Translations under genes and position numbers: made by a program | In this document: piece after piece, positions 4,150 through 62,244 of the stretch | How the letters are laid out: each line of letters starts with the position of its first letter | Position numbering within the stretch: position 1 is the first letter of the stretch | Origin: Convivina praedatoris | GTDB lineage: Bacteria; Bacillota; Bacilli; Lactobacillales; Lactobacillaceae | Length of the DNA: 64,000 nt | Assembly: GCF_933208495.1 (NCBI RefSeq) | Contig: NZ_CAKOET010000002.1 | Location: 1-64,000 of the forward strand | Direction: 5' to 3' | The notes under the pieces: model-generated | Databases searched by the model: none | What the model was told of the DNA's origin: nothing | The model's input: only the letters and a program-made list of their open reading frames with translations

Positions 4150-5367
4150 ATGGCAAAGTTAGCAGTTACTGACTTGGAACTTGCAGGTAAGAAAGTTTTG
4201 ATGCGAGTTGACTTCAACGTACCTATTAAGGGTGGGGTGATTGGTAATGATAATCGAATCGTTGCTGCTCTACCAACTATTAAGTATGTTTTGGAGCACA
4301 ATGGTCGCGCTATCTTATTCTCACATTTGGGACGAATTAAGACTGAAGATGATAAGAAAGAATTGTCCTTGGCTCCCGTTGCTAAGCACTTGGGTGAGTT
4401 GCTAGGTAAGAATGTTACCTTTATTCCTGAAACTCGTGGCGCAGAATTAGAAGCTGCCGTTAACGCTTTGGAAGACGGCCAGATTTTAATGGTTGAAAAC
4501 ACTCGTTTTGAAGACGTTAAGGATGGCGAGTATGTAAAGCTAGAATCTGGTAATAATCCTGAATTAGGTAAGTACTGGGCTTCATTGGGTGATGGTATCT
4601 TTATCAATGATGCCTTTGGAACAGCTCATCGCGCCCACGCATCTAACGTAGGGATTGCTAGTAACGTTATCCAAGCTGCTGCTGGTTTCTTAATGGAAAA
4701 GGAAATCAAGTATCTTGGGGAAACGGTTGCAAATCCTAAGCGTCCTTTCGTTGCCATTATTGGTGGTGCCAAGGTTTCGGATAAGATTGAAGTGATTAAG
4801 GCTTTGTTGAACAAGGCTGATAAGGTTATTGTTGGTGGTGGTATGTCCTACACCTTCGATGCTGCCAAGGGAAACAAGATTGGTAATTCTCTATTTGAAG
4901 CTGATAAGGTTGAATTAGCTAAGCAATTAATGGCAGAAGCTGGTGACAAGCTGGTCCTACCAGTTGATGCTGTTGCTGCTGATGCCTTCAACAATGATGC
5001 TAAGACGGTCATTGTTGATAGTGCAGCTGGTATTCCTGATGGTTATATGGGATTGGATATCGGGCCAAAGTCAATCGCTTTATTCCAAGAAGTGTTGTCT
5101 GATGCTAAGACAGTCGTTTGGAATGGACCAATGGGTGTCTTTGAGATGTCTAACTTCGCTAAGGGAACTTTGGCTATCGGTAACGAATTAGTTAAAGTTA
5201 CTGAAAATGGTGGGGCCACTATCGTTGGAGGTGGTGATTCAACTGCTGCTGTTCAAGCTTTGGGTGTGGCTGATAAGCTTTCCCACATTTCTACTGGAGG
5301 TGGTGCTTCACTTGAATATCTTGAAGGCAAGCCTCTACCTGGAATCGAATCTCTTACCAATAAGTAA
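4150..5367 (+). CDS. pgk: Phosphoglycerate kinase
   Basis: It catalyses 1,3-bisphosphoglycerate + ADP to 3-phosphoglycerate + ATP in lower glycolysis and in the phosphoketolase route. The N-terminus [48 protein letters not shown] and the nucleotide loop [10 protein letters not shown] are all present. Its 405 residues fit the family. The start at 4150 has GGAGG at 4140-4144; an in-frame TTG at 4138 overlaps that site and is rejected. It is monocistronic between its own promoter and terminator, with no gap or triosephosphate isomerase gene beside it. Confidence 0.97.
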
Positions 5368-10848: not shown

Positions 10849-10961
10849 ATCGTTAGTAATTTAAGTTTTTGATTTTGATTTGTTTTTTTCGGAAGGCGTC
10901 ATACCAATTATTTTTAATTACAACTACATTATTTTGGTGATACACCTAAAGGAGAACAATC

Positions 10962-11162
10962 ATGGAAAAAGGAACAGTAAAGTGGTTTAACGGAGAAAAG
11001 GGTTACGGCTTCATCACTCGTGAAAACGGTGAAGATGTTTTCGCTCACTTCTCAGCAATCCAAGGTGACGGTTTCAAGACTTTGGAAGACGGTCAGTCAG
11101 TAACTTTCGAAGTTGAAAACTCAGACCGTGGCTTGCAAGCTACTAACATCGTTAAAGATTAA
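10962..11162 (+). CDS. Cold-shock protein, CspA family
   Basis: This 66-residue OB-fold protein carries both RNA-binding motifs, KGYGFI (RNP1) and VFAHF (RNP2). It acts as a single-stranded nucleic-acid chaperone that melts mRNA structure. AAAGGAGAA precedes the ATG. It is monocistronic, with its own promoter, long leader and terminator. Which paralogue (cspA, B, C or D) cannot be decided. Confidence 0.95.
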
Positions 11163-11168
11163 TATTTA

Positions 11169-11195
11169 AAGTCTAGGAAGATTCCTAGGCTTTTT
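11169..11195 (+). terminator. Intrinsic terminator after the cold-shock gene
   Basis: AGTCTAGGAA (11170-11179) pairs with TTCCTAGGCT (11182-11191) around a GA turn, followed by TTTTTG. Confidence 0.88.
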
Positions 11196-11201
11196 GTTTT
11201 G

Positions 11202-26012: not shown

Positions 26013-26020
26013 AAAACCGA

Positions 26021-26217
26021 TATACAGAGAGGTTGCGACCAACATTAGTAATTAAGCAGAGCCAACCACGGCTTAGAAGCTTAATGAAAGGGGCGGTTGC
26101 CGAAGGTAGCTCACTTGGTAGGTAGTTACTTGGGCTGATGATTAAGAGTCATCAGACTGTCGTGATTTGCGATGCGCTTTGACACTTTTGGCGAATATAC
26201 CGCCAAGGCTCTCTTTC
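26021..26217 (+). promoter_or_regulatory. Lysine riboswitch (L box) aptamer
   Basis: L-box landmarks occur in order: AGAGGTTGCGA after the P1 5' strand, GAAAGGGGCGGTTGCCGAAG, GGGCTGATGA, a P4-like hairpin, GACTGTCGTG and the closing GGCTCTCT. The P1 helix is AGAGAG (26026-26031) with CTCTCT (26209-26214). It precedes an amino-acid permease of LysP type, which fits lysine sensing. Confidence 0.87.
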
Positions 26218-41139: not shown

Positions 41140-41157
41140 TTAAAAAGTAATAGAACC

Positions 41158-41260
41158 TATTTTGCCTAAGACTCAGGTGGTGCTTGCACCTTAATCTCCT
41201 GCCGAGGAAGTTGATTTTTAACTTTACCCGCATGTCTTCTTGGCGTGCGGGATTTCTTTT
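41158..41260 (+). promoter_or_regulatory. Ribosomal L10 leader
   Basis: The segment TTGCCTAAGAC...AGGTGG...CACCTTAATCTCCTGCCGAGGAAG matches the conserved L10 leader of Firmicutes, where the L10-L12 complex binds and represses rplJL. It ends in a terminator-type stem CCCGCATG/CGTGCGGG (41227-41251) followed by ATTTCTTTT, so control is probably by attenuation. Confidence 0.82.
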
Positions 41261-41293
41261 GCAAAAAATTCAAAGGAAGGAGAATTAATCACA

Positions 41294-43424: not shown

Positions 43425-43453
43425 TTGCCATCACTTTTAAAATTCGATATAAT
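43425..43453 (+). promoter_or_regulatory. SRP RNA promoter
   Basis: TTGCCA (43425-43430), a 17-bp spacer and TATAAT (43448-43453); the predicted start is about 43460. Confidence 0.8.
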
Positions 43454-43458
43454 TATTG

Positions 43459-43541
43459 TGCGAGCAAGCGTTGGCTTCCGAACCGAGTCAGGACAGGAAT
43501 GTAGCAGCTCTAAGGATGATTAGCGTTGTGCTTGTGTACAT
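43459..43541 (+). ncRNA. ffs: Signal recognition particle RNA (small bacterial type)
   Basis: The conserved domain IV core is visible: GTCAGG, a GGAA tetraloop region (AGGAATG) and AGCAGC, closed by CAAGC/GCTTG near the ends. Position between tadA and dnaX is the classical one for scRNA/SRP RNA in Firmicutes. The ends are estimated from the promoter and the following terminator. Confidence 0.88.
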
Positions 43542-43545
43542 ATGC

Positions 43546-43572
43546 AAAAGCTGCCAATTGGCAGCTTTTTTT
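43546..43572 (+). terminator. Intrinsic terminator of the SRP RNA
   Basis: AAAAGCTGCC (43546-43555) and GGCAGCTTTT (43560-43569) form a perfect 10-bp stem around AATT, followed by T's. dnaX starts 15 nt later. Confidence 0.92.
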
Positions 43573-62034: not shown

Positions 62035-62054
62035 ATCTGAATCTCCCTGTATAT

Positions 62055-62088
62055 AAAAAACCGCCCTAGATAAAAGCTAGGGCGGTTT
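62055..62088 (-). terminator. Leader terminator of the cystine transporter operon
   Basis: On the minus strand AAACCGCCCTAG (62088-62077) and CTAGGGCGGTTT (62069-62058) form a perfect 12-bp stem followed by T's. It lies 21 nt before the binding-protein start and so acts as an attenuator. Its 5' arm can also pair with the end of the leader reading frame. Confidence 0.93.
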
Positions 62089-62139
62089 GCTAGTTACGAT
62101 GATTTTGAAGTGTAGAAAATATACGTCAAAATACCGGTG

Positions 62140-62193
62140 CTAACAAGCGCCCGGCGTTAAACAAACTAATTTAGTAGGGTTAAACAATGACAT
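62140..62193 (-). CDS. Putative cysteine leader peptide (MSLFNPTKLVCLTPGAC)
   Basis: A 17-codon frame with GGAGG (62203-62199) 5 nt before the ATG and a TAG at 62142-62140. Codons 11 and 17 are TGT (Cys), the latter directly before the stop. The stretch GGGCG-C-TTGTTAG (62152-62140), covering Gly-Ala-Cys-stop, can pair with CTAGCAA-AC-CGCCC (62091-62078 region), the 5' half of the terminator. This is the layout of a ribosome-controlled attenuator responding to charged tRNA-Cys. Translation and function are inferred. Confidence 0.72.
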   Translation of the reverse strand: MSLFNPTKLVCLTPGAC

Positions 62194-62215
62194 AATATCC
62201 TCCAACATATTCATC

Positions 62216-62244
62216 AGTTTAGCGGTCTTATCATACTTTGTCAA
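62216..62244 (-). promoter_or_regulatory. Promoter of the cystine transporter operon
   Basis: On the minus strand: perfect TTGACA (62244-62239), a 17-bp spacer and TAAACT (62221-62216). Transcription should start about 16 nt before the leader peptide. Confidence 0.82.

Follow-up and report, generated by a model that had tools for sequence, protein, structure and literature searches.

A putative ribosome-mediated, cysteine-responsive attenuator ahead of the cystine-uptake operon of Convivina and its relatives in the Lactobacillaceae

The window, i.e., the whole stretch of 64,000 nucleotides of Convivina praedatoris DNA analysed here, carries on its minus strand, divergently from metG, a leader followed by a cystine-type ABC transporter operon. 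The genes of this operon are the following:

62034-61246, minus strand: receptor, a cystine-type substrate-binding protein (SBP_bac_3), from domain and structure matches
61222-60524, minus strand: ABC permease, whose best NCBIfam model is a cystine permease, below cut-off
60527-59793, minus strand: ABC ATPase, whose best NCBIfam model is the L-cystine ATPase TcyN, below cut-off
59793-58942, minus strand: DNA/RNA non-specific endonuclease (Endonuclea_NS_2), whose start overlaps the ATPase stop

The best-ranking model of each of the three ABC proteins is one of a cystine transporter, always below the curated cut-offs, and the best solved relative of the receptor is 2yln (6e-56), annotated as an amino-acid binding protein, which we take to be the gonococcal cystine receptor. 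The nuclease, already counted as part of the operon by the initial annotation, fits there, a homologue lying behind the ATPase in 18 of the 21 closest named loci (Convivina, Fructobacillus, and Leuconostoc); none was found in the Weissella-type loci L110 and L121, and the short locus L122 is not judgeable. L110 (6246-7574) and L121 (5455-6780) display a receptor-permease pair without adjoining ATPase, followed, as judged by eye, by a disulfide-oxidoreductase-like gene that would fit cystine reduction. Besides, no CysK-type protein was found in the own genome (98% complete), where both of the PALP matches obtained were recognized by eye as TrpB and threonine synthase, so that the cell probably depends on cystine import, which would be essential in poor media.

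The leader itself contains the following elements:

62244-62216, minus strand: promoter, with TTGACA at 62244, a 17-nt spacer, and TAAACT ending at 62216
62193-62140, minus strand: leader ORF of 17 codons, MSLFNPTKLVCLTPGAC-stop, with GGAGG ahead of the ATG, from direct reading and the leaders of relatives
62163-62161, minus strand: Cys codon 11 (UGU), the putative sensor codon, whose position is kept in relatives
62145-62143, minus strand: Cys codon 17, in the loop of a conserved RNA element, not itself conserved
62142-62140, minus strand: stop codon of the leader ORF, read directly
62155-62133, minus strand: hairpin P1 (GCCGG ... CCGGU) around the stop codon, the alternative to the antiterminator, from RNA folds and double changes
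62152-62126, minus strand: antiterminator 5' strand, GGGCGCUUGUUAG and CGGUAUUUUGA, from nascent-transcript folds and the co-evolution test
62108-62080, minus strand: antiterminator 3' strand, UCAAAAUCAUCG, CUAGCAA, and CGCCC, overlapping the terminator 5' arm, from duplex and nascent folds and the co-evolution test
62088-62058, minus strand: intrinsic terminator of 12 bp with a 7-nt loop, then a U tract, from direct reading and RNA fold

Most of this anatomy had been recognized in the initial annotation, and direct reading bears out both the strongly initiated 17-codon frame and the perfect 12-bp terminator with its U tail, as well as the 12 pairs between GGGCG-C-TTGTTAG (62152-62140) and CTAGCAA-AC-CGCCC (62093-62080). 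Two details had to be corrected: the promoter, described as consensus, is good but short of full consensus, with a perfect -35 hexamer and a -10 hexamer that agrees at four of six positions only, and the last base of the terminator lies 23 nt, rather than 21, from the receptor ATG (62034). By eye, a TTGACA-type hexamer also stands ahead of the short frame in most of the relatives' upstream regions that were printed; across the scan region as a whole, promoter-like sites show no excess (13 versus 16.6 in shuffled sequences).

In terms of RNA structure, the whole leader folds far better than its dinucleotide shuffles (z = -4.6, none of 200 as good), and the equilibrium fold of the full window leader favours P1 and the terminator. 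The antiterminator 5' strand can form P1 with its downstream flank or, alternatively, pair with the antiterminator 3' strand, a pairing which a further helix (approximately 62136-62126 with 62108-62097) lengthens in the window; P1 and this helix are additions to the initial annotation. The duplex fold of the two antiterminator strands, in which the strand begins one base later and which therefore counts 11 of the 12 pairs plus four pairs of the inner helix, reaches -15.9 kcal/mol, a value attained by one of 500 shuffles of the second strand.

The conservation of the frame was evaluated on the best 80 of 480 receptor relatives from a contig scan, the closest 21 being those with an identity of at least 56%. 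A Shine-Dalgarno-led ATG frame with Cys occurs 148-210 nt upstream of the receptor in 20 of these 21 closest named loci, the sole locus without such a leader being L122; the nearest named genome is that of Convivina intestini, whose receptor is 95% identical. The window's type of leader, hereafter type A, is found in Convivina, Leuconostoc, some Weissella, and the genus g56, and amounts to 14 distinct leader peptides, 13 of which have Cys at codon 11 and the remaining one at codon 13. Position 11 (13 C, 1 Q) has accordingly the lowest entropy after the start Met, while positions 4-10 and 12-17 vary, with entropies of 2.2-3.2 bits for residues 4-10. As judged by eye, the conserved Cys codon is UGU in eight leaders and UGC in six, which argues that the amino acid is kept rather than the RNA letter, and it stands 4-6 nt ahead of P1, the distance being 5 nt in 11 of the 14 leaders. 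Beyond Cys11, peptide length and frame vary by species, from 17 to 28 residues. The emphasis initially placed on the terminal Gly-Ala-Cys-stop codons is thereby displaced: Cys17 is incidental, being present only in the two Convivina leaders, and its region corresponds to the loop CUUGUUAG of the conserved RNA element, which the frame reads as Leu-Leu in Leuconostoc falkenbergense and, owing to an extra U, as Phe-Val-stop in L. lactis.

At the genus level, a close receptor orthologue exists in 7 of 19 Leuconostoc genomes and the leader is present in all seven; a receptor match of any closeness exists in 11, and in the four genomes with a distant receptor (41-45% identity) tandem Cys codons, the one feature checked there, are absent upstream. 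Among 28 Weissella genomes, the window's type of leader occurs in just five. In Fructobacillus, as which the genus g2 was taken on the basis of leaders common to named loci, the comparison of upstream regions initially suggested for this genus showed that all 13 genomes possess a leader which differs from that of the window but is equivalent to it, its Cys codons numbering one, two, or three.

The pairing partners were found to change together. P1 arms vary in step (CCGG/CCGG, CCAG/CUGG), and the antiterminator pairs GGGCG-C-UUGUUAG with CUAGCAA-AC-CGCCC in Convivina, UGCUUGUG with CACAAGCA in W. kandleri, and GCUCG-U-UAGC with GCUA-CGGGC in the genome G018. When non-overlapping strand pieces of one representative per clade are swapped, the clades being treated as independent, the own strands of nine representatives pair with a mean of -14.4 kcal/mol versus -10.1 (sd 1.04) for permuted ones, and one of 20,000 permutations pairs as well; with the seven type A representatives alone, 11 permutations of 20,000 are as good, about four being expected from chance identity alone. 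Shuffling of the second strand in 16 of the 18 folded leaders (L116 and L117 left out) places 11 at a fraction of 0.034 or below and five, namely L105, three Leuconostoc, and F. ficulneus, at an unexceptional 0.09-0.30. The antiterminator of L. citreum is weak (-8.7 kcal/mol), and the GC-rich Convivina strand pairs equally well with 5 of 14 foreign strands. RNAalifold on the alignment A2 (13 sequences) finds double changes in 10 of 14 pairs (3 of 6 in P1, 7 of 8 in the terminator) and its prediction contains P1 and the terminator but lacks the antiterminator; since Convivina and Leuconostoc are misaligned at P1 by one column in the MAFFT alignments A2-A4, the strand-swap test was relied on. 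Besides, base pairing alone would demand less constancy of GUUAGCACCGGUAUUUUGAC than is seen in Convivina and Leuconostoc. At the level of sequence comparison, every element of the leader can be followed, together with its conservation and the co-evolution of its pairing.

Nascent transcripts, cut in the terminator loop, were folded on the assumption that the ribosome footprint reaches to 12 nt from the first base of the A-site codon. With this footprint on Cys11, the fold is the antiterminator in 12 of 12 leaders (L116 left out). If the footprint is omitted, so that the P1 arm can pair, 11 of the 12 still fold best into the antiterminator, and G018 alone into P1.

Searches across the family delimit the occurrence of this leader. 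The covariance model R1, built from 12 leaders and run with stricter filters, by which weak matches were possibly lost, gives 21 matches at E 0.01 or better in 397 family genomes. Sixteen are strong (E < 2e-9; two in Convivina, two in g56, seven in Leuconostoc, and five in Weissella), and all 16 stand directly ahead of the receptor gene. The other five (E > 0.001) are unrelated sequence and were rejected as leaders. As some 12 of these 16 come from the training set or from the same species (the additional ones being G205, G350, G273, and G062), the new information is that nothing strong turns up elsewhere, plus G205 and G350, which lie outside the training set and keep Cys11. A simple pattern search with GTTAGCANNNNGGTATTTTGAC, whose spacing is unlike that of the window, returned 64 of 397 genomes at up to two mismatches; only G018 and G396 match exactly, and the rest were taken as chance.

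A stricter criterion, asking for a Shine-Dalgarno-led ATG frame with Cys and a terminator behind it, 90-260 nt upstream, retains 15 of the 20 closest loci, 1 of 60 more distant receptor loci, and 11 of 354 control genes. The five close loci that drop out (L111, L113, L114, L116, and L120) all possess the Cys frame; in L114 and L120, the terminator folds as a long bulged structure, which the single-hairpin rule rejects, and that of L116 is shortened. More precisely, L116 (3847-3980, Leuconostoc pseudomesenteroides) lacks about ten nt of the terminator 5' arm compared to L. falkenbergense, by which its attenuation may be altered. Nine of the 11 control genes look by sequence like tcy-type permeases (five), an acyltransferase (one), and cystathionine lyases (three), and the two others (L134, and L178 on the plus strand) are possibly chance. 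Tandem-Cys frames alone occur in 13 of 104 receptor loci versus 25 of 497 control genes, and ten of these control matches are of the Companilactobacillus and Limosilactobacillus kinds described below (seven of ten inspected).

With regard to known RNA families, Rfam gives no match at E up to 5 between 61000 and 63000 of the window, T-box included, and, at gathering scores, nothing beyond two tRNAs in the loci of 12 relatives. Elsewhere in the window, it detects a lysine riboswitch (26019-26187), an L10 leader (41147-41266), a cspA-type thermoregulator (10855-11197), and a small SRP RNA (43451-43548). The own genome has 20 T-box (RF00230) matches at E up to 0.001, five of them over the cut-off; its cysS lies on another contig, which is absent from these 20 places.

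Taken together, these data support, with a probability that we put at roughly 0.88, the view that the leader is a ribosome-mediated, cysteine-responsive transcription attenuator sensing charged tRNA-Cys through one codon. A ribosome would translate the 17-codon frame as RNA polymerase transcribes the leader. When cysteine is ample, the ribosome would reach the stop codon and hide GGGCGCUUGUUAG, thereby blocking the antiterminator, so that the terminator would form and transcription would stop ahead of the cystine-uptake operon. When Cys-tRNA is scarce, the ribosome would stall at Cys codon 11, where its footprint would hide little beyond the P1 5' arm; the next strand would stay free and pair with the linker and the terminator 5' arm, allowing read-through into the receptor, permease, ATPase, and nuclease genes. 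Translation of the frame, stalling, and the cysteine response are what we infer from this arrangement. Since the antiterminator wins among nascent folds even with P1 free, the outcome is probably decided by a ribosome that masks the strand while standing at the stop codon, and P1 may be a pause or protector hairpin. The antiterminator being the stronger of the two structures, a leader that is not translated might let polymerase through, unlike in the trp system. A single regulatory codon is few for ribosome-mediated attenuation and counts against the proposal. A cysteine-responsive attenuator had been put forward in the initial annotation, which named loss of the Cys codons or of the pairing in relatives as an outcome that would speak against it; Leuconostoc, Weissella, and Convivina keep both, and the preservation of Cys11, hairpin spacing, antiterminator pairing, and terminator across divergent relatives argues for the proposal.

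Other explanations would account for part of these observations. The same anatomy would be expected from a TnaC-like nascent-chain arrest, in which the peptide, liganded by free cysteine or cystine, halts the ribosome at a fixed place and thereby determines how the RNA folds, and the window indeed displays a short ORF, a terminator, and a C-terminal Cys; such an arrest is nevertheless very improbable, as Cys11 is the only near-invariant residue, the tunnel-lining residues 4-10 vary freely, and what follows Cys11 differs among species in length and frame. Alternatively, the conserved element CACCGGCGCUUGUUAGCACCGGUAUUUUGAC could harbour an RNA that binds a ligand or a protein and controls the terminator in a riboswitch-like manner, the short ORF being secondary. 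That this element is more conserved than the peptide in Convivina and Leuconostoc, where the frames differ, speaks in its favour. Still, Rfam recognizes nothing at the leader at E up to 5, the sequence is much changed in the Weissella loci L062, L063, and L121 while Cys11, P1, and the antiterminator pairing are kept, and the Cys leaders of Fructobacillus have a different RNA, unmatched by R1, which together leave this explanation with very little probability as well.

Finally, the frame could be a chance ORF ahead of the ordinary terminator of a short transcript, any regulation being exerted by a CymR-like repressor at the promoter. A Cys in a 17-codon frame is not rare by itself, and the own genome encodes two proteins of the Rrf2 family, to which CymR belongs. 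Against this stand the 20 of 21 closest loci, the position-specific Cys, the co-evolving antiterminator, and the outcome of the stricter criterion, whose few control matches mostly look real, so that we consider coincidence extremely improbable. A repressor could act in addition to the attenuator.

The proposed attenuator has counterparts of different build elsewhere in the family. In Companilactobacillus, leaders such as MQACCCVVIENYYTFSACLIPLN, of the kind ACCCVV..LIPLN, occur with a terminator, and in Limosilactobacillus CCC leaders precede a Cys/Met-metabolism PLP enzyme (Pfam, in L167 and L168) and ABC genes:

L146:2005-2160, L148:2000-2155, L158:1932-2082, L172:1939-2090, L135:2000-2167, and L230-L256: Companilactobacillus poly-Cys leaders
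L167:1166-1324, L168:1137-1315, and L177 upstream of 380: Limosilactobacillus CCC leaders ahead of a cystathionine-lyase-like gene

The leader of L146 is followed by a homoserine O-succinyltransferase-family protein, a PALP enzyme (Pfam), which presumably carries a cysteine-synthase motif, and cystine ABC genes; by eye, four more Companilactobacillus loci resemble it. A model built from seven such leaders, R2, matches 27 of 397 genomes, i.e., 25 of the genus g4, which is every g4 genome in the pattern-search list, and two of g35, with CCC in 26 matches and CCT in one. The next gene looks like an acyltransferase in 19 cases, the receptor in four, and another, different ABC permease in four, namely L250, L251, L253, and L254. 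In the Limosilactobacillus leaders, the antiterminator changes yet is kept; the frame of L177 stops directly after CCC, and its antiterminator pairs, by eye, GCGUCUUAUG with CAUAAGACGC. Fructobacillus displays VCCCAPLF-stop, then GGGUGG pairing with CCACCC.

Weissella with separate permease operons have leaders like MLHASSNNYIACASLTRFLR, with, by eye, GCCUAACGCG pairing with CGUGUUAGGC in L149. On the minus strand of L149, L151, L178, and L181, a Cys leader ending in (S/C)LTRFLR and a terminator stand upstream of a permease-ATPase operon, at approximately 5210-5290 on the reverse complement; the permease operon having its own leader, a pair of leaders may co-regulate receptor and permease. Upstream of the receptor in L067, L070, L077, L078, L149, L151, and L181, the leaders are very short (MSLGMRC, MNFRMRC); a terminator is not obvious there, and a hairpin adjoining the receptor Shine-Dalgarno is possible (AACCGGTG with CACCAGTT; AACAGATGT with ACATCAGTT); they possibly act by translational attenuation. 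CC or CCC leaders ahead of the receptor were also found in G010, G035, and, outside the family, G044.

In other Firmicutes, cysteine genes are usually left to T-boxes and CymR/CmbR. Somewhat more probably than otherwise, the Lactobacillaceae would rely in their place on a widespread regulon of Cys leader attenuators, covering cystine import, cysteine synthase, serine/homoserine acyltransferase, and cystathionine lyase, with no fewer than four RNA architectures which are unlike one another but share the use of Cys codons. These would be the one-codon transcriptional sensor of Convivina, Leuconostoc, and Weissella; the CCC leaders, of three kinds, of Fructobacillus, Companilactobacillus, and Limosilactobacillus; the leader at the separate permease operon of some Weissella; and the Weissella 'RC-stop' leaders, maybe translational. 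The sensing principle would thereby have been retained while the RNA was repeatedly rebuilt.

An attenuator of the trp/his type consists of a short ORF with cognate codons, a terminator, and a mutually exclusive antiterminator. The leader shares these features, since it has a ribosome-binding site and short ORF, a position-conserved Cys codon, a terminator before the first gene, and an antiterminator strand that, with the assumed footprint, is hidden with the ribosome at the stop and free with the ribosome at the sensor codon; it differs in that cysteine would be sensed, through a single conserved codon, and in its target, which is cystine import and, elsewhere, cysteine synthesis. T-boxes sense the charging of a specific tRNA and control a terminator, and the leader would likewise be a tRNA-charging sensor acting on a terminator, but has no T-box match. 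Cys leader peptides in mycobacteria were reportedly the subject of work by Canestrari in 2020. Cys-codon leader peptides precede cysteine genes in Actinobacteria, with no conserved terminator hairpin reported in Mycobacterium (PMC1262725), and the M. smegmatis case is described as translation attenuation (PMC13236596). Those leaders resemble the present one in having Cys codons in a short frame ahead of cysteine genes, while their Cys runs near the stop differ from the single conserved Cys, with conserved terminator and antiterminator, of the window type. The uORFC-8-2 motif ahead of cysS in Rhodobacterales (Alphaproteobacteria) is a predicted attenuator which likewise has Cys codons in a short frame and then a terminator stem; its two tandem Cys codons lie inside the first stem, whereas the window has no tandem Cys and a transporter operon (PMC8632094). 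Within Firmicutes, ribosome-mediated attenuation is described for Listeria Rli60 ahead of ilv-leu, for branched-chain amino acids (PMC5864092), and a His leader ahead of hisS/hisZ in bacilli is proposed by prediction (PMC2965389).

To judge by title and opening of the abstract, the open-access matches listed include no report of a cysteine leader-peptide attenuator from the Lactobacillaceae. Ribosome-mediated attenuation and Cys leaders elsewhere being known, what appears new, and well supported by the comparison of genomes, is a cysteine version with conserved terminator and antiterminator in this family. If true, it would fill a gap in the control of sulfur supply in food and gut lactic acid bacteria, some of which are probably unable to make cysteine. 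It would also provide a natural series of equivalent switches with one to three sensor codons, in which the number and place of the codons are directly comparable, as well as a means of influencing the cystine uptake of fermentation strains.
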